DNA of 64,000 bases, from assembly GCF_003350405.1 (NCBI RefSeq), contig NZ_QQAW01000003.1:62001-126000 (forward strand), in the 5' to 3' direction. The translations under genes and the position numbers were made by a program. The DNA is from Gluconacetobacter liquefaciens. Lineage in GTDB: Bacteria > Pseudomonadota > Alphaproteobacteria > Acetobacterales > Acetobacteraceae. The notes beneath the pieces are model-generated. The model made no database searches. It worked only from the letters and a program-made list of their open reading frames with translations, and was not told the DNA's origin. This document shows, piece after piece, positions 2,213-55,010 of the stretch. How positions within the stretch are numbered: the stretch's first letter is position 1; the number at the start of each line of letters is the position of its first letter.

Positions 2213-3112
2213 ATGATCGAACTGAAGGCGGGAGCAGCGCGGCTAGGCCTGCTTCCTGAACTGGGAGGGGCGGTGACCTTCTGGAAAAGTGGGGAGGTCT
2301 GCGTGCTCGAGGCCGTCAGCGACCCGAATCTGCTGGCACAGAAGGGGCACAGGGTTGCGGCCTATCCGCTGGTGCCGTTCTCCAATCGCGTCGCGGACGG
2401 ACATTTTCGTTTTGACGGGGCGGAATATCGGATGAAACCGAATTTTGCCGGCGAGCCGCATGTCATCCACGGCAATGCCTGGCAGCATCCGTGGGAACTC
2501 GCGCTGCTGGCCGACGACAGCGCCACGCTGCAACTGGAATGGCATCCGCCCTATGACCGCCCCATGGATGAGTGGCCGTTCGCTTACCGGGCGCAGATCC
2601 GTTTCGACCTGCGTGAGGAGAGCCTGGCGGTGGGGATGGTGATCGAGAATATCGACCAGCGGCCGCAGCCGGTCGGGTTGGGGCTTCATCCTTATTTCCC
2701 CCGGCGGGGCGGGGTGAAGGTGGGATTTTCGGCTGATACGGTTTGGACGAATGACGAGCGTCATCTGCCGGCGCTGCGCGTGCCGGCCACGGGGGAATGG
2801 TCGTTCGAGCATATGCGGGCCATCACGGACCAGGCGATCGACAATTGCTATGCAGGGTGGGACGGTGCGGCCTTCCTGCGCTGGCCCGATGACGGGCTGG
2901 CGCTGACCATTACGGCTAGTCCGACTTTTCGGCATCTGGTGCTGTTCACGCCGCCGGACAGGAATCCGGACAGGAATTTCGTCGCGATCGAGCCGGTGAG
3001 CAATATGAACGATGCGTTGAATCATGCCGGCGTGATGGACCGGGGGATCACGATCCTGGCGCCGGGGGAGCGGCTGGAAGGGCACATCCATTTTGCACTG
3101 ACCGCCTGCTGA
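2213..3112 (+). CDS. aldose 1-epimerase family protein
   Basis: Galactose-mutarotase-fold protein, probably interconverting sugar anomers in the cytoplasm. Family marks are the N-terminal YPLVPFSNRV stretch, HVIHGNAW carrying the first active-site His, GLGLHPYFPR carrying the second conserved His, and EPVSNMNDALNH near the C-terminus. The 299 residues fit the family. It starts 27 bases after the uvrB stop and greB follows 6 bases after its end, so it is probably co-transcribed. The actual substrate cannot be read from sequence. Confidence 0.88.
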   Translation: MIELKAGAARLGLLPELGGAVTFWKSGEVCVLEAVSDPNLLAQKGHRVAAYPLVPFSNRVADGHFRFDGAEYRMKPNFAGEPHVIHGNAWQHPWELALLADDSATLQLEWHPPYDRPMDEWPFAYRAQIRFDLREESLAVGMVIENIDQRPQPVGLGLHPYFPRRGGVKVGFSADTVWTNDERHLPALRVPATGEWSFEHMRAITDQAIDNCYAGWDGAAFLRWPDDGLALTITASPTFRHLVLFTPPDRNPDRNFVAIEPVSNMNDALNHAGVMDRGITILAPGERLEGHIHFALTAC

Positions 3113-3118
3113 GGCACT

Positions 3119-3676
3119 ATGCGGCCTATGACGCATAATGATGACGACGATGACGAGGCGCGGCCGCGTGCCATAGACGGGGTCTCGCGCTATATCACTC
3201 CGGTCGGCATGGCGACGACGCGGCGGGAACTGAGTGCCCTGCTGTATGAAGAGCGGCCGCGTATCGTGGAGATCGTGTCGTGGGCCGCCGGCAATGGCGA
3301 CCGTTCGGAAAATGGCGACTACCTGTATGGTAAAAGGCGCCTGCGCGAGATCGATCGGCGGGTGCGCTTCCTGACGCGTCGGATCGAAAAGGCGATTGTG
3401 GTCGATCCGGCTGCGCAAACCCAACGGAATCGGGTCTTCTTCGGGGCGACCGTGACCTATGTGACGGAAGAGGATCTGGAGCGTACGGTCGTGATCGTGG
3501 GGGTGGACGAGGCCGATCTGGCGGTAGGGCAGGTCAGCCTGGCATCGCCGATCGCGCGAGCGTTGCTGGGCGGTCGGGTGGGGGACGAAGTGCGGGTGAT
3601 GACGCCGGCGGGAGCCGAGTTGATCGAGATCCTGGCCATTTCCTATCCCGATCCTGTCGGGATGGATGCGCTATGA
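3119..3676 (+). CDS. greB: transcription elongation factor GreB
   Basis: Rescues backtracked RNA polymerase by stimulating cleavage of the 3' end of the transcript. The coiled-coil part carries the GreB-type signature GDRSENGDYLYGKRRLREID with the tip acidic residues, followed by the FKBP-like C-terminal domain (VFFGATVTYV, ARALLGGRVGDEV). The WAAGNGDRSEN form and the RRVRFL stretch place it with GreB rather than GreA. It has an acidic N-terminal extension containing five Asp in a row. ATG at 3119 is used; a second in-frame ATG lies at 3128. The gap to the epimerase gene is 6 bases. Confidence 0.93.
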   Translation: MRPMTHNDDDDDEARPRAIDGVSRYITPVGMATTRRELSALLYEERPRIVEIVSWAAGNGDRSENGDYLYGKRRLREIDRRVRFLTRRIEKAIVVDPAAQTQRNRVFFGATVTYVTEEDLERTVVIVGVDEADLAVGQVSLASPIARALLGGRVGDEVRVMTPAGAELIEILAISYPDPVGMDAL

Positions 3677-3767
3677 GGTTTTTCGCGGGCGAGAACTCGA
3701 CTAAGAAGCAGGGGCTGGTGACAGATCGTGTCATCAAGGTATCGGATTGTGCCTGGAGGTCGCGTTC

Positions 3768-4763
3768 ATGTCCCGCTCGCTGAAGGTTGCCGTGCAGATG
3801 GACCCCCTGTCGGGGATAGACATCAATGGCGATTCGACTTTTGCCCTGATGCTGGAAGCTCAGGCGCGGGGGTACGATCTGTTCGTCTATCAGGTGCCGG
3901 GGTTGAGCCTGCGCGAGGGGCGTGTGGCCGGCGGCGCGCGAGCCGAGCGGTTGACGGCGCGGGCACGTCCGGCGCGGGTTCGGCGGGTCGCGGGTGATCA
4001 TGCCGAACTGGGTGAGGAGCAGGTGATCGACCTCGCCGCGATGGATGTGATCCTGATGCGGCAGGACCCCCCCTTTGACATGGCCTATATCAGCGCCACC
4101 CACATGCTGGAGCATGTGCATGGCGTCGGGCCGGGCAAGGCGCTGGTGGTCAATGACCCGGAATGGGTGCGCAATGCGCCCGAGAAGCTGCTGGTTACCC
4201 ATTTCCCCGACCTGATGCCACCGACCCTGGTGACATGGGATGTGCTGGCAATCCGAGCGTTTCGCGCCAAATGGCGCGATATCATCGTCAAACCGCTGTT
4301 CGGCAATGGCGGGGCGGGGGTGTTCCGCATCCGCGAGGATGACGAGAACCTCAATTCTCTGCTGGAGATGCATTTCGCGCGCTCGCGCGAGCCGCTGATG
4401 ATCCAGCGTTACGAACCGGCGGTGCGTCGGGGGGACAAGCGGATCATCCTGGCTGACGGTGCGCCGATCGGTGCGATCAACCGTGTGCCGGCGCAGGGCG
4501 AGGCGCGGTCTAACATGCATGTGGGCGGCAAGGCCGTGAAGGTCGAACTGAGCCCCCGGGACCGCGAGATCTGCGAGGCGATCGGGCCGATGCTGCGCGA
4601 GAAGGGCCTGATCTTCGTGGGAATAGACGTGATCGGCGATTGGCTGACGGAGATCAATGTCACGTCGCCCACGGGGTTGCAGGAAATCGATCGTTTCGAT
4701 GGCATCAATTCCGCCGGGTTGATCTGGGACTGCATTCTGCGACGGCTCGACGGTGGCGAATAA
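3768..4763 (+). CDS. gshB: glutathione synthetase
   Basis: ATP-grasp ligase joining glycine to gamma-glutamylcysteine, the last step of glutathione synthesis. Diagnostic stretches are [41 protein letters not shown], the ATP-binding [13 protein letters not shown] and the metal/ATP site [14 protein letters not shown]. The start is ATG 3768, which follows a CTGGAGGT ribosome site at 3753-3760. An in-frame TTG at 3747 has no comparable site. It is 331 residues, normal for bacterial GshB. The window also carries a glutathione peroxidase at 42500-42985, a possible user of the product. Confidence 0.95.
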
Positions 4764-5762: not shown

Positions 5763-7097
5763 ATGCCGGCAGAGAGACAGGTCCGGATGAAGGTTGCAAC
5801 CGGCGGTTTCCTGACGCGAAGCGGCGGGCTGAGCGGCCATAAGGCGGTTGGAACGCTTTATCTGGTCATGGCAGTCTTGGCCGGTCTGATCGGGGGCGGT
5901 CTGGCGTTGCCATTGCGCATCGGGGCGGAGGGTACCTCCTGGGGGCGGATGGCGATCGATCATGGTGCGCTGATGGTGCTGTTCTGCGCGCTGCCAGCAC
6001 TGGTCGGTGGGTTCGGCTCCTGGTTTGTGCCGCTGCTGGTGGGCGCGCCCGACCTGGCGTTCCGTCGCCTGAATCTGGCCTCCTGGACCGGTATCGCCGT
6101 CAGTTTCGGGCTGGTTGTAGCCGGAATCTCGACGGCGGCTGCGATGGTGCTGTGGTGTGTGGCGATGCTGGGGCTGGCGATCAATATCGTTGCAACGGCT
6201 TTGAACATGCGCGGCCGTATGGTCGCGCTGGGTGCCATGCCCCTGTTCGTCTGGGCGCAGGTTCTGACGGCGATGATGATGGTGATGGTTCTGCCTGTGC
6301 TGGCGGCGGCGCTGACGCGCGGCCTGCTTGCCGGGACGGGCACCGATATCGTGGCCCGGGCGCTGCGTGCCTTTTCGGGCCCGGAAGCAGGGCTGCTGCT
6401 GCTGCCTGCGGCCGGTGTGATCTGCCAGTTGGTCGAAACCTTCTCCGGTGTGGCGCTGCGATTTCGCGAAGCCGCCCTAGGGGCGATGGTGGTCCTGTCG
6501 GTCGGTGGAGCATCGGTCTGGGTGCATGATGTATTCGCCACCGGGTTGGCGGCGCAGCCTGCGGCGCGGCCGCTGGTCGAGCAGGCCGTCATGGCATTGC
6601 CGATGCTGATACTGCTGGTGGCGTGGGGCAGGACGATTTTGGCCGGGCGGCCGGTCTTCCGCGTGCCGATGCTTTGGGCGGTCGCTTTCATGGCGATGCT
6701 GGTTGCGGCACCGTTTCAGGCGCTGGCGGATGGTGGAGCCGATGCGCATGCGCTGGTGCTGCCAGCCGCGCTGTTTGCCGCATTCGGCGGATTTTACTAC
6801 TGGATCGGCAAGATGGCCGGCGGTGCCTATCCTGAATGGATGGGACGCGTGCATGTGGCGCTGGCCGTCGGTGGCAGCATCACGACTCTGCTGCCGGGTG
6901 GTGTGATGGCGGGTGTGGCGATGCAGGGCCTGTCGATGCTCGTCTTTATTGCCGTGCTGGCCGTGGCGTTGCTGGGATATCGCCGTGTTTCTGGCAATTA
7001 CTGGGGGGCGGGTGCGCGTACCCTGGAATGGACGCTGCCCTCGCCCGCACCGCGTGATTCCTTTGCCGGCTTCATGGTCGGAGGAACCGGGGCATGA
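5763..7097 (+). CDS. degenerate cytochrome c oxidase subunit I-like membrane protein (CtaD/CoxA homologue)
   Basis: Clear haem-copper oxidase subunit I ancestry: HKAVGTLYLVMA (26-37), PALVGGFGSWFVPLLVGAPD (78-97), MPLFVWAQVLTA (159-170), FYYWIGKMAGGAYPEW (344-359) and the C-terminal TLEWTLPSPAP. The catalytic site is gone. The CuB His and cross-linked Tyr motif GHPEVY reads GPEAG (206-210, His deleted, Tyr to Gly), the CuB His pair reads VHDV (254-257), and the haem a3 His position aligns with Asp327. His67 and His329, matching the low-spin haem ligands, remain. It has 444 residues against about 530-560. It cannot be a normal oxidase; haem carriage or an assembly role is inference. AGGAGAA precedes the ATG, and the gene overlaps ctaB by 4 bases. 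Confidence 0.85.
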   Translation: MPAERQVRMKVATGGFLTRSGGLSGHKAVGTLYLVMAVLAGLIGGGLALPLRIGAEGTSWGRMAIDHGALMVLFCALPALVGGFGSWFVPLLVGAPDLAFRRLNLASWTGIAVSFGLVVAGISTAAAMVLWCVAMLGLAINIVATALNMRGRMVALGAMPLFVWAQVLTAMMMVMVLPVLAAALTRGLLAGTGTDIVARALRAFSGPEAGLLLLPAAGVICQLVETFSGVALRFREAALGAMVVLSVGGASVWVHDVFATGLAAQPAARPLVEQAVMALPMLILLVAWGRTILAGRPVFRVPMLWAVAFMAMLVAAPFQALADGGADAHALVLPAALFAAFGGFYYWIGKMAGGAYPEWMGRVHVALAVGGSITTLLPGGVMAGVAMQGLSMLVFIAVLAVALLGYRRVSGNYWGAGARTLEWTLPSPAPRDSFAGFMVGGTGA

Positions 7098-8038
7098 GTA
7101 CTGGCGCCGCCGCATCCGAGGTACCGCGTTTCGACGCGGCGCTGGTCGGGACCGAGGCCCGTGACTGGTTCGCGCTGCTCAAGCCGCGCGTGATTTCGCT
7201 GGTCGTGTTTACCGGTGCGGCCGGCATGGCCATGGCACCGGGCCATCTGAACCCGGTGATCGCCTGTGTTGCCATCCTGTGCATCTGCATGGCGTCGGGC
7301 GCGGCTGGTGCGATCAACATGTGGTACGACCGCGATATCGACGCGATCATGACCCGTACCGCGCGCCGCCCCATTCCCGACGGGCGCATTCGTCAGGACC
7401 AGGCGCTGGGGTTCGGTATCGGCCTGTCGACGGCGTCGGTGTTGCTGATGTGGCTGGCGACGAATGCTCTGGCTGCGTTCATCCTGGCATTTTCGATCTT
7501 CTTCTATGCCGTGATCTACACGATGTGGCTGAAGCGTTCGACGCCTCAGAACATCGTGATCGGCGGGGCAGCCGGCGCGTTTCCGCCCATGATCGGCTGG
7601 GCGGCGGCGACTGGGTCGCTGGATGTGATGCCGATCGTGATGTTTGCGATCGTGTTCCTGTGGACGCCGCCACATTTCTGGTCGCTGTCGCTCTATGCGT
7701 GCAAGGATTACGGCCGGGCGGGTATTCCGATGCTGCCGGTAGTGCGGGGAGCGAGGCATACGCGTTGGCAGATCCTGATCTATACACTGATCCTCTCGGC
7801 GGTGTCGCTGGTGCCGTCGGTGCTGCATCAGGCGGGGTGGCTGTATTCCGCGACTGCGGTTCTGTTGGACGCGGGCTTTGTGGGCTGTGCCATCCGTGTG
7901 CTGCGGGACCGGCAGGATGCAACTGGCGTCAGCCTGACCGGTGATGGTGCTGCCCGGCAGGCTTTCCGCTTCTCGTTGCTGTATCTGTTTCTGCTGTTCT
8001 GTGGCCTGCTGGCCGATCATTTCCTGATCATGGGCTGA
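7094..8038 (+). CDS. ctaB: protoheme IX farnesyltransferase (haem O synthase)
   Basis: Integral membrane UbiA-type prenyltransferase adding the hydroxyethylfarnesyl group to haem B to give haem O, needed by bo3 or aa3 oxidases. The first Asp-rich site NMWYDRDIDAIMTRTARRP and the second loop region YACKDYGRAGIPMLP are present, with about eight to nine hydrophobic segments. The start is the ATG overlapping the upstream stop (ATGA at 7094-7097) with GGAGG at 7080-7084, so translation is coupled to the degenerate subunit I. At 314 residues it appears intact and functional, unlike its partner. In an organism with a bo3 quinol oxidase it would still be required. The name cyoE is equally applicable. 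Confidence 0.95.
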   Translation: MSTGAAASEVPRFDAALVGTEARDWFALLKPRVISLVVFTGAAGMAMAPGHLNPVIACVAILCICMASGAAGAINMWYDRDIDAIMTRTARRPIPDGRIRQDQALGFGIGLSTASVLLMWLATNALAAFILAFSIFFYAVIYTMWLKRSTPQNIVIGGAAGAFPPMIGWAAATGSLDVMPIVMFAIVFLWTPPHFWSLSLYACKDYGRAGIPMLPVVRGARHTRWQILIYTLILSAVSLVPSVLHQAGWLYSATAVLLDAGFVGCAIRVLRDRQDATGVSLTGDGAARQAFRFSLLYLFLLFCGLLADHFLIMG

Positions 8039-23545: not shown

Positions 23546-24094
23546 GTCGCCACGATCGGCCGCCGAAGGCAACCGGCCACGCGGTATGGCGGCTATGGTG
23601 TTGTTGACGTTGGCCTGCTCCTTGCGTCGCCATTCGGGCGGGGGCTGGGTGGATACGTCGTTCAGTCCCGGATTTCGATGGTGCAACCTTTGCGCGAGGG
23701 CCGCTGCAACAGCCATGGGGCAAGTTTGCCGGAGGGCGCCGCTTCGAAGACCATCACGACCGCGTAGCATCTACGCCAGCCATTCCATGCTGATCGGCCG
23801 GGAGGTGACGGGCGGCTTTGTATCGTGCTAAACTGACAACGGCGCGTGATAACGCCTTTTCAAAAGGGCGGCCTCCTATGTCGGGTGGCCTGCCGAATAC
23901 AACACCCGGACCTATGGTCCAGCGGTGCGCGGTTTCTGCCGCGTGTCGTCTGGGAAATAGGCAGGGCGTGCTTTTGCCCTTTTGAAACACGTTATCACCC
24001 GCCCGACGCCAGGAAGGGGGTGCGATGCGTGTGCAGATTCGCCTCTGTTTCGTTCTGCTGACGTCGAACGCCGTTGGTCGTGCATGAGGTCGAA
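23546..24094. other. intergenic region with an imperfect inverted repeat
   Basis: No coding frame here has support. Between 23846 and 23998 two arms of about 23 bases face each other: GTGATAACG..CTTTTCAAAAGGGC at the left and GCCCTTTTGAAAC..GTTATCAC at the right, agreeing except for a few bases and one length difference, about 150 bases from end to end. It could be a degenerate small mobile element (MITE-like) or a long hairpin. It marks the left edge of the lower-GC island. Confidence 0.45.
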
Positions 24095-24319
24095 ATGGTG
24101 GATCGGGACAAAAGCGACGCGCTGCACATGTCCGCCCATGACGTTGCGGCGTGCCTCATCAGAGGCTTCGGGCCGGACGCCTATCTTGCTGTCCGTCGCC
24201 AGATCGTCCGGTGTGTGGAACAGAAACTTGCCGACGAAGCAGTATTCTGGGTGAAAGTCAGAGAACAAGTTGAGTTGCTGACGCGCGTCGTTCGGAGGAA
24301 AGATGAACGACTTCAATGA
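24095..24319 (+). CDS. small hypothetical protein, 74 residues
   Basis: ATG at 24095 preceded by GAGGT at 24086-24090. The product is soluble, charged and predicted helical, with LHMSAHDVAACLIRGFGPDA and ARRQ-like helices, for example VRRQIVRCVEQKLADEAVFW. Its composition is typical of a genuine short alphaproteobacterial protein, but no family is recognised. It is alone on the plus strand at the left side of the island. An earlier in-frame start at 24074 is possible. Confidence 0.5.
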   Translation: MVDRDKSDALHMSAHDVAACLIRGFGPDAYLAVRRQIVRCVEQKLADEAVFWVKVREQVELLTRVVRRKDERLQ

Positions 24320-24800
24320 AGATGCTTTCGTTTCTTCATGGCGGTAGAGCCCGGTCGAGAAGACGGTGGTTTTCCGGCTGACCGGGTATCGGCACGCGGA
24401 GAACGCCGTTATCGCAAAATGATCTCGGGCGTGTTGGAGGCAAACGAGGCCATCGTCTGGAAGGGTGGGTTCGCCGGAGCCAGCGCTATCGGGTCTTGGT
24501 GGTATCTGGTAAAACCTTGCTGAAAGTGATCATTACAAATGCCTTAAATAGATTAAACGATTCATACGGAACTGGATAGTCCGTTTTCGCCTCATGTCGG
24601 ACATCGAAGTGGTGATGGCAGCTGCCCGAAAGCCGTCATTCCCTGCGACGGCGGCTTCTGATGGAAGGAGGCGTTACCACCCGGACCGATTCATCGGCGC
24701 GGAACGTGCAACTGTGGTGGCTTTTTGCCCATCCGCTTCCAGGGATCGAAAATGGTCGCTGAGAAGCCGGGCGCCGTCAGTACCCTATTTCCTTCGCTAT
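24320..24800. other. non-coding or decayed sequence inside the island
   Basis: About 480 bases between the small ORF and the SIR2 gene. Short frames exist on both strands but none has a ribosome site with a plausible protein. An AT-rich patch lies around 24525-24580. No repeat or RNA gene was recognised. It may be remains of earlier insertions. Confidence 0.4.
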
Positions 24801-25670
24801 TCACCAGTTGGTAGTGCTAACCAACTCGAAGCGCTCAGCCTCGACCGCTCCGTTGAGAGCTTCAAGTTCAGTTACGAGTCCACTATGATCCGCGTCGACC
24901 GGATCATATTCTAGCACTTTAAGGTTACGGTTCTCACGTAGCGAGTATTGACGATCTTTATTGAAGCCGTGGGAGGTTACAAAATAGTGCGGGGCTTGCT
25001 CCTGATAACGAAAATTTTGGTTTTCAAGTAGCAAATTGACATCGGGGTCCGAAATGCCGCAGCCTAAAAATATAAAAGTATGAGTCAATAGCGCGGCATC
25101 GAATGCCTGATAAAATGCCGAGTTATTAATGCGGGCTTGAGAATAGTCTTTTTGGGTAAATATTAGATCTGCCGTTGAGTTCAAGTTTCCATGGACTTTA
25201 ATTATGTATCGCCCGGGTCCACGAAGAAATTCCTCAACGTCTTTATCGTAATAGTTTTTGATGATATGTGAGCCCCGATGGATGCTATCAGCATGGCGCT
25301 CATAAATATCGTCAAAATTGAGTGTAAATACTACCCGGCTATCCAATTTAAGAATCTGTTCGTGAATAGGGGCGGGAGAGTAGCCAGGCGTGGAAAACGT
25401 GTCGCGCAAATATTTTGCCCAGCGAGAATCGTACCGCTTCTTTAGCCATTCACAAGCATGAAGGAAATCGCCCGACGCAAGGGCCTCTTCGATCGCCGCC
25501 ATGTCCGACTTATCCGGACAATCCAACGCTGCTTGCGCGAGAAAGTCTTTCCATGTTGGAGGCTTTTTGCCGTTGGAACCAGTGGAGTGACGCGAAATGC
25601 CACTGCCGAGTACTAGAACCGCTTTGCGGCGGCCTAAGTCTGGCGCGACTTCACTCCAGTCGATGCTCAC
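24801..25670 (-). CDS. stand-alone SIR2-family protein (putative NAD-degrading effector)
   Basis: 289 residues made up of one SIR2-like Rossmann domain. The dinucleotide loop is LGSGIS (21-26). The TTNYD-equivalent is TLNFDDIY (116-123) with catalytic-type Asn118, and the KLHG-equivalent is IIKVHG (156-161) with His160. FTQKDY (171-176) and FIFLGCGISDPDVNLLLE (199-216) complete the SIR2_2 pattern seen in ThsA, DSR and Avs effectors that deplete NAD+ on phage infection. No sensor domain is fused. The GTG start overlaps the upstream ParA stop by 4 bases, so the two are coupled. Base composition is clearly AT-richer than the flanks. NADase activity is inferred from family. Confidence 0.85.
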   Translation of the reverse strand: MSIDWSEVAPDLGRRKAVLVLGSGISRHSTGSNGKKPPTWKDFLAQAALDCPDKSDMAAIEEALASGDFLHACEWLKKRYDSRWAKYLRDTFSTPGYSPAPIHEQILKLDSRVVFTLNFDDIYERHADSIHRGSHIIKNYYDKDVEEFLRGPGRYIIKVHGNLNSTADLIFTQKDYSQARINNSAFYQAFDAALLTHTFIFLGCGISDPDVNLLLENQNFRYQEQAPHYFVTSHGFNKDRQYSLRENRNLKVLEYDPVDADHSGLVTELEALNGAVEAERFELVSTTNW

Positions 25671-26641
25671 TGGGTCCGCTCCAAGAACTCAGCGGTTACG
25701 TTGCCAAAAATGTCCCGGGCCTCTTTCACCTTGGCAAAATGCGCTCCGACAACGCCATCGCCTGCCGTAAGGGAAAAAATGGGCGCATGACTTGACTGAG
25801 ACATAGGAACCAAGCTGAACAGGTTTGGAACCGTACCGATCTCGAATGCCCGTCCGTTCAGATGCGTGGCCAGCCCATTGTCGATGATAACTTGGTCAAT
25901 CTTCTGCCGTATGTTCTCGTAAGCTTGGACGGCTCTCCGCTGACCCTCTTTATCTCGCTTCGCGAGATAGCTTTGGGTTACGTAACCAATAAATTCGGGT
26001 CGGGAATATGCTAGATTTGGGATAAGTTCAGGGCGGCGAGTAGTCTTAAGGCCATTTTCCCACTCTCTCCACCAGCCCTCGATCCACGACGCTATGTTTT
26101 CGAACGCTTTGAGCGAGAAGATGTCGAGAGATACAGGACTAATAAAATAGTCAGCGCTTAGCATGATCGAACGATTTATCGCACCGAGCGACGGGCTGAC
26201 GTCAAACAGGACATAATCGTAGCGGGACAGCTGCTTCAAGAGTTCTGAGAACGCGAGACTAGTCCTAATGCCTCGCACATCGCCAGCTTTAGCGCTCCCC
26301 CAATCGTTTGCGAGCAAATCCTCAGTCAACGCGAGACGAGGATCTCCGGGCAGAACGTCAACTTCAAACCGTGGCGCCTTTCGGACCATGACTTGATCGC
26401 TGTAGCCCTCGCCGAGTGAAAGCGGCTCAAGCATCTTGTAAACGGTAAACTCGCCCGAATTCGAATAAAACGAGTTTACGGATTCATCGTCGAAGAAATA
26501 CTGAGTGGCATTGCACTGCGGATCAGCGTCAACGACGCATACTTTTTTTCCGTAGTTTTTAGCGATGAAAGCTGCCACGTTACAGAGGAGCGTGGTTTTG
26601 CCTACGCCACCTTTGTTATTGAAAAACGCGACTGACTTCAC
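25667..26641 (-). CDS. ParA/MinD-type ATPase, partner of the SIR2 gene
   Basis: 324 residues. Deviant Walker A KGGVGKTT is at 10-17, Walker A' VVDADPQ at 36-42 and Walker B YVLFDVSPSLG at 143-153, then DYFISPVSLDIFSLKAFENI, the usual ParA region. The GTG start is preceded by AGGAGG with 6-base spacing, the strongest ribosome site nearby. No ParB gene or recognisable parS accompanies it, so chromosome or plasmid partitioning is unlikely; a sensor or regulatory ATPase for the downstream SIR2 protein is a reasonable inference. The C-terminal third is unusual and does not match a simple plasmid ParA. Confidence 0.88.
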   Translation of the reverse strand: MKSVAFFNNKGGVGKTTLLCNVAAFIAKNYGKKVCVVDADPQCNATQYFFDDESVNSFYSNSGEFTVYKMLEPLSLGEGYSDQVMVRKAPRFEVDVLPGDPRLALTEDLLANDWGSAKAGDVRGIRTSLAFSELLKQLSRYDYVLFDVSPSLGAINRSIMLSADYFISPVSLDIFSLKAFENIASWIEGWWREWENGLKTTRRPELIPNLAYSRPEFIGYVTQSYLAKRDKEGQRRAVQAYENIRQKIDQVIIDNGLATHLNGRAFEIGTVPNLFSLVPMSQSSHAPIFSLTAGDGVVGAHFAKVKEARDIFGNVTAEFLERTQ

Positions 26642-27178
26642 CCGAACCTCCTGACATGTTGATCAAGGAATAGACCCTCATTGCTGTCAATGACAATCGG
26701 CCACACCGTTATGCTGTGGAATAACGAGAAAGCCAGATTGACGAGCGGCGGCGTGTTGCGACCAAAAAGCTAGCGAAGGGGCTTCAAATGACGGCCAAGT
26801 GGCGAGGGCTGACGGTGAGACGACAAAGCAGTAGGTTGAATGTCTACCATATGCTGTCTGCTTCCACGGCGCCAGTTTAGGTATCGCTTTATCCTGGCAT
26901 GAAAGTACGATGGCTTTCGAGCAGGTCCTGAGCCTACCTGGACGGCCGGGCGCGGGGGTGCAGACCGACGGCTTCATGACGCTAGATCGGCGGCTCTTGT
27001 CAAATCTTGACGTTCGCATCCCTACGGGGGACGGCGATATCTGGTCGGTAGGCGCCAAGAATATGGGCGCAGGCTATGTCTGCATTCGGCTAATCGCTTC
27101 CCGATTGCCGACAACCCGCTTACCCCCCCCATAGCTGACTGCCTTCCGCCTGGAACAGTTGCTTCAACGCATAGGGGT
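26642..27178. other. upstream region of the ParA-SIR2 operon, no supported gene
   Basis: About 540 bases. It must contain the ParA-SIR2 promoter. A short imperfect dyad, CCACACCGTTATGCTGTGG (from 26701), lies about 60 bases upstream of the ParA start. A plus-strand frame at 26910-27134 ends in a run of eight C and shows no family similarity; opposite frames are equally unconvincing. It is probably decayed sequence at the right edge of the island. Confidence 0.4.
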
Positions 27179-27222
27179 GAAGGGGACAGCGGTCCCCTTC
27201 CGGGTCCAGGGCGGCGCCCTGG
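27179..27222. repeat. double palindrome, REP-like element or terminator
   Basis: Two perfect hairpins in tandem: GAAGGGGAC / GTCCCCTTC (27179-27200, 4-base loop) and CCAGGGC / GCCCTGG (27206-27222, 3-base loop). They lie just beyond the 3' end of the M32 carboxypeptidase gene and may end its transcript. Paired palindromes of this sort recur between genes in acetic acid bacteria, so an interspersed repeat is likely. Confidence 0.7.
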
Positions 27223-27235
27223 TCTTGGGGTGTTT

Positions 27236-28741
27236 TTATTGTGGGGTGGCGCCGCAATAGCGTTCGCGCAGGTGAGTGCGGTAGGCGTCGGTTGAAGGTG
27301 GTGTGCCGGTGGCGGCGGCGACGATGCCGGCGGTGGAGAGGCGGCTGGCCTGGGTGTGCACATGGGTGCGCAGCCAGGCCAGGAGTGGGGCGAAATCGCC
27401 GTGTGCGATGCCTTGGGGGATGGCGGGATCGCTGTCGAAGGCGGCTTGGCGGAGTTGGGCGGCGAGGATGGCGCCCAGTGTGTAGGTGGGGAAATAGCCA
27501 CAGGCGCCGGATGGCCAGTGGATGTCTTGCAGGCAGCCGAGGCGGTCGTTTGGCACGGTGAGCCCCAGCAGGTCGTGGATGCCGGCGTTGAAGGCTTCCG
27601 GCAGGTCGCGCAGGGCGAGCGTGCCGTCGATCAGCGCGGCTTCCAGTTCGTAGCGGACCAGGATGTGGGCGGGGTAGGTGATTTCGTCGGCGTCGACGCG
27701 GATGAAGCCGGGTTTGACCTGCGTGACCGTGCGATACAGCGCGTCGGCCGACCAGCCGGCGTCGGCTTCGGTGGCGCCGAAGGTTTCGCGTAGCGCGGGT
27801 GCGATCCAGTCGATGAAGGGCCGGGAGCGCGCGATCTGCATTTCCATCAGCAGGGACTGGCTTTCGTGCAGGCTCATGCCGCGTGCCTGGCCCACGGGCA
27901 GCGTGTGCCATTCCGTTGGCAGGCCCTGTTCGTAGAGTGCGTGTCCGGTTTCATGCACCACGCCCATCAGGGCGGAGAGGAAATCGGCGTCGTCATAGCG
28001 GGTGGTGATGCGGACATCGTCCTCGGCGCCGCCGCAGAAGGGGTGGATGCTGACATCCAGGCGGCCGCGCGCCATGTCGAAGCCCAGCGCGGTCATGATC
28101 TGGCGACCCAGGGCTTCCTGCCGGGCGACGGGGAAGGGGCCGGCGGGGGAGACGATCGGCGGGAGCGTGGCCTGGTGGGCCTGGGCTTCGGCGATCAGGC
28201 CGGGCAGGTCTCGGCGCAGTTCGGCGAAGACCGGGTCGATATCGGTGCGGCGGGTGCCGGGGTCGTACTGGTCCAGCAGGGCGTCGTAGGGGGCGAGGCC
28301 GAGGGCCGCGCCCTTGACGATGGCGAGTTCGCGCGTGCGGTCCAGCACGTCGGACAGCAGGGGCAGCAGGGCGGCGAAATCGCCGTCGCGCCGGGCCGTG
28401 CGCCATGCGACCTCGCACCGTGAGGCGGCGCGGGAGGAGGCTTCGACCAGTTCGGCGGGCACCGAGGCGGCGTGCAGCCAGGTGCGGCGCATTTCGTGCA
28501 GGTTCGCGGCTTCCCATGTGCCGGCGGGGGCCTCGGCGCGGTCCAGCAGATCGCCGATGCGCGGGTCGGTCAGCATGTCGTGGCACAGGACGCTGAGGGT
28601 GGCGATGCTGTCGGCGCGGCTGTCGGCGGCGCCCGAGGGCATCATGACGTCCTTGTCCCATCCCAGGATGCCCAGCGCGTTGCGGATGCGCCCGATGCGG
28701 GCGAAATGGCTGGTGAGATCCTGGTAAGCGCTTTGTGGCAT
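27236..28741 (-). CDS. carboxypeptidase Taq (M32 family metallopeptidase)
   Basis: Cytoplasmic zinc carboxypeptidase of 501 residues, the family's normal size. The zinc site HETGHALYEQGLP is visible, with SLHESQSLLMEMQ downstream and GYFPTYTLGAILAAQL near the C-terminus, both family blocks. It probably helps degrade peptides from protein turnover. ATG 28741 follows AAGAGAGA; a much longer reading frame upstream is non-coding. It is divergent from the TPR protein gene at 28820. Confidence 0.95.
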   Translation of the reverse strand: MPQSAYQDLTSHFARIGRIRNALGILGWDKDVMMPSGAADSRADSIATLSVLCHDMLTDPRIGDLLDRAEAPAGTWEAANLHEMRRTWLHAASVPAELVEASSRAASRCEVAWRTARRDGDFAALLPLLSDVLDRTRELAIVKGAALGLAPYDALLDQYDPGTRRTDIDPVFAELRRDLPGLIAEAQAHQATLPPIVSPAGPFPVARQEALGRQIMTALGFDMARGRLDVSIHPFCGGAEDDVRITTRYDDADFLSALMGVVHETGHALYEQGLPTEWHTLPVGQARGMSLHESQSLLMEMQIARSRPFIDWIAPALRETFGATEADAGWSADALYRTVTQVKPGFIRVDADEITYPAHILVRYELEAALIDGTLALRDLPEAFNAGIHDLLGLTVPNDRLGCLQDIHWPSGACGYFPTYTLGAILAAQLRQAAFDSDPAIPQGIAHGDFAPLLAWLRTHVHTQASRLSTAGIVAAATGTPPSTDAYRTHLRERYCGATPQ

Positions 28742-53854: not shown

Positions 53855-54438
53855 GGGGAGGGTCTCCTCTTTAACAGGCAGCCAACATAACGGTGAGGGG
53901 CTTCGCCTCATTACGAAGCATCGATGCAAGCTGCGTTCGAAATCGCGATGCGGCGCGCGCAAGGATCGATTCCGAAATCATCATGTAGGGATGCGCGTCC
54001 AGGACGCGGAAATCACCATTTCCATGGCGAAATCTCGGTGTGCGATAATATATCGCGTGGGACGGTTTTTATTATAAAAATATTCTGAATAGTTCAGAAT
54101 AGAGTAAAACCGATATTGATTCCACATTTACGCATTGTGTGCGCAAGTGATACTTCGTTTTCTCCCGTTATCAATCTTGTGTGCGCATAGTATGAGAAAT
54201 ATACGCAGATTTGAAGGAGGAATATCGTAAAATATGGAGAAATTTTGGCAAATATATATCAATGTTTCTGTATATTATTCGTCAAATAAATATGTTATGT
54301 GAGGAATTATTTTCAAAAAATTGGAATTTTTTATATAAATACTGGATTATTTTTTATTATACTGTTTGATATCTGTTTAGATAAAAAAATATATGTTCTT
54401 GGATTGCTCGGGGCGGGTCGCCGTGGTCCCCAAAAGAG
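53855..54438. promoter_or_regulatory. AT-rich upstream region with palindrome and direct repeats
   Basis: The stretch from about 54000 to 54400 is far richer in A+T than anything nearby and has no supported gene. It contains a perfect palindrome TATTCTGAA / TTCAGAATA (54081-54101, 3-base centre) and an 11-base direct repeat TTGTGTGCGCA at 54135-54145 and 54177-54187, 42 bases apart, about four helical turns. The repeats suit a regulator bound on one DNA face. A strong AAGGAGG (54214-54220) precedes only a 22-codon frame. It probably controls the MFS gene. Confidence 0.55.
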
Positions 54439-54463
54439 AAAGGCCCGCACGGGGCGGGCCTTT
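54439..54463 (-). terminator. rho-independent terminator of secB
   Basis: Perfect 10-base stem AAAGGCCCGC (54439-54448) and GCGGGCCTTT (54454-54463) with a 5-base loop, located 29 bases past the secB stop. The minus-strand transcript ends ...GGGCCTTTCTCTTTT, a fair U-rich tail. The stem is symmetrical and could work in both directions. Confidence 0.85.
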
Positions 54464-54491
54464 CCATTCGATAACAGTGACTTGGAGTGGA

Positions 54492-55010
54492 TCAGGCATT
54501 CCCGGCCGTCTGCGGGAAGTTGGCGCGTTTGGCCTGCCACAGGGCAACGAAATCGATCGGCTGCAGCGCGACCGGCGGGAAACCGCCGTCACGGGTGACG
54601 TCGCTGATGATGCTGCGCGCGAACGGGAAGATCAGGCGCGGCACCTCGACCAGCAGGATCGGCTCGACCAGGTCGTCGGGTGCATTGCCCAGGGTCACCA
54701 CCGCGGCATAGGCCAGTTCGGCGACGAAGACTGTGCGGCCAGGGGCGGCGCCTTCTTTTTCCGGTGCTTCCACGGCTTCGGCCTTGATCGATAGCACGAC
54801 TTCGAAGACCGGCTGCTCGGGCGGCAGGCGGCTGGCCTGCACGTCGATGTTCACCGAAATCTGGGGATTCGAACGCAGCGTGGCGAAAATCTCGGCGCCC
54901 GAGGGGACTTCGAACGACAGATCCTTGATGTACTGGACGTTGATGGCCAACGGCAGCGCCGGCGGGGCATTCTGGCTTCCGTCGGCGGGGAGCTGGGTCG
55001 AATCTGACAT
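54492..55010 (-). CDS. secB: protein-export chaperone SecB
   Basis: Keeps preproteins unfolded for SecA. Core blocks are INVQYIKDLSFEVPSGAEIF, VFVAELAYAAVVTLGNAP and VEVPRLIFPFARSIISDVTR, then GGFPPVALQPIDFVALWQAK, all typical of SecB. 172 residues including short variable ends. ATG 55010 begins the usual N-terminus. It is divergent from a Tim44-like gene, the standard alphaproteobacterial arrangement, and followed by a strong terminator. Confidence 0.96.
   Translation of the reverse strand: MSDSTQLPADGSQNAPPALPLAINVQYIKDLSFEVPSGAEIFATLRSNPQISVNIDVQASRLPPEQPVFEVVLSIKAEAVEAPEKEGAAPGRTVFVAELAYAAVVTLGNAPDDLVEPILLVEVPRLIFPFARSIISDVTRDGGFPPVALQPIDFVALWQAKRANFPQTAGNA

Follow-up and report, generated by a model that had tools for sequence, protein, structure and literature searches.

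SIR2 proteins of antiphage systems are treated as a class of NADases in the passages seen of PMC11559045, which also present SIR2-HerA, there called Nezha, as a two-gene antiphage system of a SIR2 protein and an ATPase that depletes nicotinamide adenine dinucleotide (NAD+). The accessible sections of Anantharaman et al., 2013 (PMC3710099) predict that a HEPN protein of the MAE_18760 family and a ParA/Soj ATPase form a toxin-antitoxin pair. Here we analyze a 64,000-nucleotide stretch of Gluconacetobacter liquefaciens (contig NZ_QQAW01000003.1, positions 62,001 to 126,000; the window), in which the gene of a ParA/MinD-class ATPase is followed by that of a stand-alone SIR2-like protein. The pairing is real, conserved as a unit and beyond chance, and the ATPase belongs to a wider family that swaps partners, with separate clades accompanied by SIR2, RelA/SpoT, HEPN or Schlafen-AlbA genes. 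The features concerned, in window coordinates, are as follows.

25667..26641, minus strand: ParA/MinD-class (deviant Walker A) ATPase of 324 amino acids, first gene of the pair (Pfam AAA_31, E 2.6e-32)
24801..25670, minus strand: stand-alone SIR2-like protein of 289 amino acids, predicted NADase effector, second gene of the pair (Pfam SIR2_2, E 5.1e-19)
25667..25670, minus strand: GTGA shared by the ATPase stop and the SIR2 GTG start (sequence)
26647..26652, minus strand: AGGAGG ribosome-binding site, 5 nucleotides before the ATPase GTG start (sequence)
26591..26617, minus strand: deviant Walker A motif NKGGVGKTT, ATPase residues 9-17, including K10 and K15 (all nine residues invariant in 29/29 alignment rows)
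26201..26203, minus strand: Walker B aspartate D147 of the ATPase (invariant in 38/38)
25311..25319, minus strand: SIR2 N118-F119-D120, with the active-site Asn (N118 and D120 invariant in 38/38)
25191..25193, minus strand: SIR2 catalytic-type His160 (invariant in 38/38)
24428..27124, no strand: widest extent of the putatively acquired cassette (BLAST of the flanks against same-genus stretches)

The locus resembles the 2013 pair in placing a ParA/Soj-class ATPase beside a small gene for a toxic enzyme, and the ATPase is proposed as the control element in the sections of PMC3710099 consulted. Some relatives of the window ATPase have HEPN_RiboL-PSP partners. The window differs in its partner, SIR2_2, and in its ATPase, which falls in a separate clade (support 99); HEPN accompanies only 5 of the relatives labelled by partner below. 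SIR2-HerA shares the two-gene build of SIR2 plus ATPase (PMC11559045, passages seen), and Kongming KomBC, as far as PDB titles tell, shares a small stand-alone SIR2 (264-278 amino acids) with a separate partner, at a template modeling (TM) score of 0.75 to the window SIR2 model. In contrast to both, the ATPase here is an AAA_31 protein with the ParA/Soj fold, not HerA, and it is this AAA_31 gene that stands beside the SIR2 gene. HerA belongs to a different ATPase class, and KomB is not a ParA ATPase.

Among sequences in PADLOC and PDB, the SIR2 regions of DSR1/DSR2, Thoeris ThsA, Avs5 and Lamassu LmuA are closest to the window SIR2. Those of DSR, Avs5 and LmuA lie within longer proteins (profiles of 433-1227 positions) and the ThsA profiles span 242-478 positions, whereas the window SIR2 stands alone in 289 amino acids. 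Thoeris combines ThsA, a SIR2 with a ligand-binding domain, with the TIR protein ThsB, while the window has SIR2_2 only and an AAA_31 partner. The DSR1/DSR2 profiles run to 1215-1227 positions, and the NCBIfam Dsr2 model gives 41 bits against a cut-off of 1400; Avs5, a SIR2 fused to a STAND NTPase, gives 34.9 bits in NCBIfam against a cut-off of 1000. Membership in Thoeris, DSR, SIR2-HerA and Avs5 was rejected on domain make-up.

The original prediction had held that the SIR2 systems it named lack a ParA partner. This agrees with the open-licence PMC literature searched (preprints and subscription papers lay mostly outside it), in which we recognized no description of a SIR2 and ParA-class ATPase pair or of the four-effector exchange, and with PADLOC and NCBIfam, which hold no good model for either protein; the prediction had overlooked the HEPN version proposed in 2013. 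Inactive MinD/ParA-like domains serve as effectors, in a different arrangement, in the passages seen of PMC7159879; PMC5379612 and PMC3316620 mention ParA genes, the latter also Sir2, and their passages show no pair. AhCobQ (254 amino acids; PMC11856932, in part) was also weighed as a lead on the ATPase and not adopted. New here, relative to that literature, are the SIR2 pairing of a ParA-class ATPase and the family-wide exchange of four effectors; the two-gene, ATPase-controlled effector module is of a known kind.

The pairing was followed with an ATPase profile (A1) built from 12 ATPases blind to their neighbors and applied at E 1e-40. It matched in 6 of 100 genomes of relatives, 24 of 397 of the family and 27 of 398 of the phylum (samples that overlap in part, the own genome counted each time), and of 219 loci found with it in IMG/VR contigs 80 were kept. 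Partner classes were assigned to 131 labelled loci. Loci with an ATPase match shorter than 250 amino acids, which are broken or partial copies (e.g., L024, L077 and L111) and low-scoring ParAs, were kept out of the labels and the tree; L001, L007, L020, L026-L030 and L159-L174 are unlabelled as duplicates, re-fetched stretches or loci of other kinds than the ATPase family.

SIR2 lies directly downstream in 42/42 labelled loci whose ATPase scores at least 311 bits and that have room downstream; 12 of these built the profile and 30 are from outside it. The 131 loci hold 45 ATPases at or above this score, namely the 42 and three cut ones; for one of the latter, L099, the same contig has a SIR2 match. 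Below 311 bits, a line set after viewing the scores (the next lower is 259), SIR2 stands beside 0/86. The genome surveys gave the same picture, with SIR2 beside the ATPase in ten distinct genomes, which are all ten with an ATPase of at least 340 bits. SIR2 also adjoins the fragmented ATPase of the unlabelled L111 (around 3001-4000). The two homologues thus occur together in distant taxa, the opposite of the outcome that the original prediction had said would refute it: carriers include Pseudomonadota, Actinomycetota and Bacteroidota, plasmids and phage contigs.

Other searches agree. A genome scan with the ATPase alone returned 6 loci, with SIR2 next to it in 5; the sixth, L007, matches at 27% identity over part of the protein. 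The eight best plasmid records for the ATPase are the same eight as for SIR2 and span six genera: Photobacterium, Spirosoma, Burkholderia, Neorhizobium, Vibrio and Salmonella (three records). Scanning in reverse with SIR2 gave 16 viral loci, 15 of them on contigs that, by contig name, also gave an ATPase locus; the match of the 16th starts at the contig end. The genes overlap by some length in 33 of the 42 SIR2-linked loci and by exactly 4 nucleotides in 23. Distances among the ATPases and among the SIR2 proteins are correlated (r 0.84, 38 pairs; 0/2000 permutations as high), so the two genes move as a unit. Searched at DNA level with one of the Salmonella plasmid copies, E. coli genomes returned no match, which says little about a family this diverged.

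The two open reading frames (ORFs), their overlap and the ribosome-binding site are exactly as originally predicted, on the minus strand, and the retention of Asn118, His160 and the Walker motifs, also claimed at the time, extends to the relatives: SIR2 N118, D120 and H160 are invariant in 38/38 non-redundant relatives, ATPase K10, K15 and D40 in the 37/37 rows with letters there (one row is without that end) and D147 in 38/38. Read from sequence, the active-site residues of SIR2 and ATPase are intact. A lysine such as K10 in the deviant Walker A motif usually marks ATPases whose dimers form around ATP. The ATPase model (predicted local distance difference test, pLDDT, 89; predicted TM score, pTM, 0.90) finds its best fold match in 3pg5, then in Soj/ParA proteins, and holds conserved basic residues, AKR..G.RR (227-236), in a lower-confidence loop. 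3pg5 is an uncharacterized crystal structure (DIP2308 of Corynebacterium diphtheriae, with a title that gives no function) and is related over almost the whole length of the ATPase (E 1.5e-54 by sequence, 8.5e-83 with a profile). SIR2_2 is the only Pfam domain in the 289 amino acids of the second protein, whose model (pLDDT 92.7, pTM 0.91) is closest in fold to DSR2, KomBC and ThsA, each in its SIR2 part; its sequence and fold neighbors are proteins of antiphage systems. We take DSR2, ThsA and KomC to be NADases, and the window SIR2 is predicted to be one as well.

SIR2 is one of several partners. The 131 labelled loci divide into SIR2 (42), Schlafen (35), RelA_SpoT (21), HEPN (5), none recognized (17) and cut (11). 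RelA_SpoT was recognized by Pfam in 18/18 partners scanned, and also in L024, where a RelA/SpoT-type gene stands beside an ATPase broken by one internal stop. The E-x-Q-x-R motif, a mark of synthetases, is invariant in the 18. RelA/SpoT-type genes follow the ATPase in 20 labelled viral loci within L112-L144 and in L073. HEPN_RiboL-PSP exceeds the Pfam cut-off in 3 of 4 partners scanned, the fourth lying just under it. The fifth HEPN locus was found with a profile of the other four: in the Pseudomonas prophage Pf1 (L015, AY324828), an unannotated HEPN-type ORF on the plus strand, from about 7016 onward, directly follows the ParA-like Orf317 and scores 165 bits. In the Schlafen loci (L022, L035-L049, L056, L057, L059-L072, L078, L109 and L110), a gene with AlbA_2 and HATPase_c_4 (Pfam in 5/5 scanned) lies upstream of the ATPase, often overlapping it by about 4 nucleotides.

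These partners follow the ATPase phylogeny. A tree of 109 of the 131 labelled ATPases (made after removal of the 11 cut loci and of 11 others at 90% identity or more; "quick" type trees, with support from the Shimodaira-Hasegawa-like approximate likelihood ratio test, SH-aLRT, only) places the SIR2-linked (38), Schlafen (34) and HEPN (5) sets each on one side of a branch, with SH-aLRT values of 99, 100 and 99. The RelA_SpoT set forms one group of 17, with the long-branched L073 apart. Partner labels change 5 times on the tree, against a mean of 57.6 when shuffled, in shuffles that ignore relatedness. Nine presumed ordinary ParAs (three plasmid-annotated, one near a ParB_N match of the window's own genome and five low-scoring viral ones) fall outside all partner sets, with weak support (80) and long branches. 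ParB identity assigned by eye to ORFs downstream of L139, L149, L154, L155 and L158 was withdrawn, these having no similarity to one annotated ParB.

In four loci the ATPase-SIR2 pair is immediately preceded by a gene for a related DNA methyltransferase (L009:6860-7990, L097:1866-2990, L098:1860-2990 and L100:1861-2991), and in L177 such a gene (6522-7652) overlaps the end of SIR2. The methyltransferase is perhaps a third component in some branches.

The window copy bears the marks of mobility. The original prediction described it as richer in AT than its flanks, and its GC content is indeed 0.495 against 0.652 for the whole window, the lowest among 311 windows of pair length taken in steps of 200 bases. 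GC content at third codon positions (GC3) is 0.49 in SIR2 and 0.57 in the ATPase against 0.82-0.85 in three flanking ORFs. Judging by this composition, the cassette was therefore probably acquired recently. A second AT-rich stretch with short ORFs lies at 54001-55000 (GC 0.513).

The left flanking gene is present in 14/14 genomes of the genus. Among seven same-genus stretches compared by BLAST, the left flank matches in 7 and the right in 4. Between these flanks (window 23596 and 27249) lie 24 bases in G003 and unmatched DNA of about 1.5 kb in G001, 2.1 kb in G004 and 2.4 kb in G007; G005 and G006 have other genes after the left flank, and their fetched stretches stop short of the right one. 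Window 23600-27249 is thus a variable intergenic site between two genes that are conserved across the genus; one genome has almost nothing there, and others have other DNA. The left match to G010, whose DNA is 97% identical, ends at 24427, 120 bases from the G010 contig end, and the right-flank match to G007 starts at 27125; the cassette therefore spans at most 2.7 kb, within which the ATPase and SIR2 genes are the sole recognized ones. G010 carries a different pair of its own elsewhere (ATPase 55% and SIR2 47% identical to those of the window), so 2/14 genomes of the genus have a pair. Promoter and terminator scans of the window gave nothing beyond chance level, and its repeat listing held nothing resembling element ends.

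Phage contigs supply a second context. In nine of the 23 viral loci with neighbors listed, the 3 kb fetched include a gene for an integrase or a portal protein (L082, L086, L087, L092, L095, L096, L099, L104 and L111; L082 has both). These genes were assigned either from a Pfam match or from resemblance to a neighbor that has one, and PHROGs agrees in kind. On three phage contigs (L092, L104 and L111, the last with its fragmented ATPase) the pair is flanked on one side by a portal gene and on the other by a replication gene of gpA type. In L104 this replication gene was recognized by its match to proteins annotated as phage replication protein A; its counterparts in L092 and L111 were recognized by their match to the L104 gene (86% and 37%). 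The region from gpA to the portal gene gpQ is described as an antiphage-system hotspot of P2-like phages in PMC9122126; ParA goes unmentioned in its main text. A neighbor in L090 was tried as gpA and matches tail proteins instead; L090 and L101 were not counted as hotspot cases.

A control protein with an effector is what the evidence points to: the pair is conserved, its genes overlap, the active sites are intact and the effector is replaceable. On balance we find it fairly probable that the pair is a self-contained two-gene module of the abortive-infection or toxin-antitoxin type, in which the ATPase controls a SIR2 NADase that would deplete NAD+ upon sensing an invader. From these sequences and contexts we infer complex formation, NADase activity, the direction of control, the trigger and defense as the selected role. 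By analogy with its fold, the ATPase would switch between states through ATP binding, dimerization and hydrolysis, and SIR2 would be made by translational coupling to the ATPase gene. At rest the ATPase would hold SIR2 inactive or withhold its assembly. An invading phage or replicon might alter the state of the ATPase, through bound DNA, a phage protein or a changed nucleotide pool; SIR2 would then be freed or assembled and hydrolyze NAD+, the loss of which would arrest or kill the cell and stop the infection.

Several observations weigh against this interpretation. The seven window neighbors scanned with Pfam are ordinary metabolic, transport and peptidase genes. The pair is uncommon (2/100 relatives, 6/397 family and 5/398 phylum genomes, the own genome counted each time), and 50,697 named phage records hold no SIR2 relative at E 1e-5. 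A defense-island scan gave a weak signal, with a small excess not resolved by protein. The 147 neighbor ORFs of 20 loci (the window not among them; one of 148 ORFs, L175:3840-8237, omitted for size) matched at E 1e-15, among the 25 of 50 families listed, mostly PtuA (up to 2 members), with PtuB 1, MTase_II 2, PDC-S28 1, RTasRmuC 1 and ATPase_I-A 1, the matching member not being told. The 91 ORFs of 6 control regions matched 21 families with 1 member each, all of helicase-type names (e.g., DpdE, ZorD and DrmD) and therefore probably reflecting one or few ORFs. Finally, 17 labelled related ATPases with room for a partner have none recognized, so some family members may work alone. Such partnerless ATPases include L008 (phage SE1), L012, L013, L019 (IncX1 plasmid), L058, L102, L103, L105, L106 and L108. 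L019 adjoins a separate ParA-ParG, and distant matches, perhaps of the L019 kind, occur in many plasmid records from enterobacteria.

The main rival, which we hold to be a good deal less probable though still worth entertaining, is a plain toxin-antitoxin or addiction module. In it the ATPase would counter SIR2 as antitoxin to toxin, and the module would be retained because it stabilizes its mobile element or island, with phage defense secondary or absent. Gene order, with the regulator first and the effector second, fits such a module, as do the overlap and the presence of members on plasmid records and viral contigs; RelA/SpoT and HEPN effectors, moreover, are common toxins of such systems. 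The same proposal was made for the HEPN and ParA/Soj pair (PMC3710099, sections seen). The window copy, however, is a bare two-gene cassette in a variable site of chromosomal type, and the position between gpA and portal on three phage contigs favors superinfection defense; the two roles are also not mutually exclusive. It is less likely again that the pair acts mainly against plasmids or other competing replicons, with the ParA-like ATPase reading the partition complexes or DNA of invading plasmids and triggering SIR2 in the cells that bear them. The partition-ATPase fold and the conserved basic residues of the lower-confidence loop would suit this role, whereas the phage-contig context points to phages.

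We regard it as quite improbable that SIR2 modifies proteins, as a deacetylase or ADP-ribosyl transferase, and in this way regulates the ATPase in a process other than defense. Classical sirtuins deacetylate proteins, and the pair is a conserved one, but the best sequence and fold neighbors of the window SIR2 are DSR2, ThsA and KomC, which we take to be NADases, and related ATPases have RelA/SpoT, HEPN or Schlafen genes in its place.

As for partition, the ATPase is of ParA class by its AAA_31 domain and ParA/Soj fold. The original prediction had noted the lack of a nearby ParB: the two ParB_N matches of the genome lie on contigs C1 and C2, and there is none on the window's contig, C3 (other centromere-binding families and parS were not searched for). 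The gene downstream of the ATPase is SIR2, not ParB, and on a V. ponticus plasmid record a separate ParA-ParB lies some 2.6 kb away from the pair. On these grounds and on tree placement the partition-cassette reading, which the prediction had named as a way to fail, was rejected. That the ATPase is a plasmid or integrated-element ParA with SIR2 beside it by chance is scarcely credible, for all its ParA fold and deviant Walker A motif, given the SIR2 partner in all 42 testable loci at or above 311 bits, the ParB evidence just given and the presumed ordinary ParAs outside the partner sets, weakly supported as that last placement is.

The conserved SIR2 pair and the ATPase relatives with other toxic enzymes suggest an undescribed family of anti-virus or toxin systems. 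The candidate defense system of the original prediction stands in so far as the two genes form a unit and the context (the hotspot on three phage contigs, the mobile cassette and the swapping of effectors) speaks for defense; the wider ATPase family with its exchangeable effectors had been missed. A broader proposition, which we see about as much reason to believe as to doubt, is that ParA/MinD-class ATPases outside the partition ParAs make up a general immune platform, so far undescribed, whose exchangeable effectors number at least four (SIR2, RelA/SpoT synthetase, HEPN RNase and Schlafen-AlbA), each controlled after the sensing of an invader, the SIR2 version described here being one branch.

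The familiar roles of ParA ATPases are the movement of DNA and the placement of structures within the cell. If the proposition is true, a ParA clade associated with effectors of the NADase, alarmone-synthetase, RNase and Schlafen types would be a new class of control protein in bacterial immunity and toxin biology, and its modules, being small (two genes), should be easy to test. It could also explain some of the ParB-less genes annotated as "ParA family protein" or "AAA family ATPase" on plasmids and phages, and would offer a possible role for the uncharacterized structure 3pg5.

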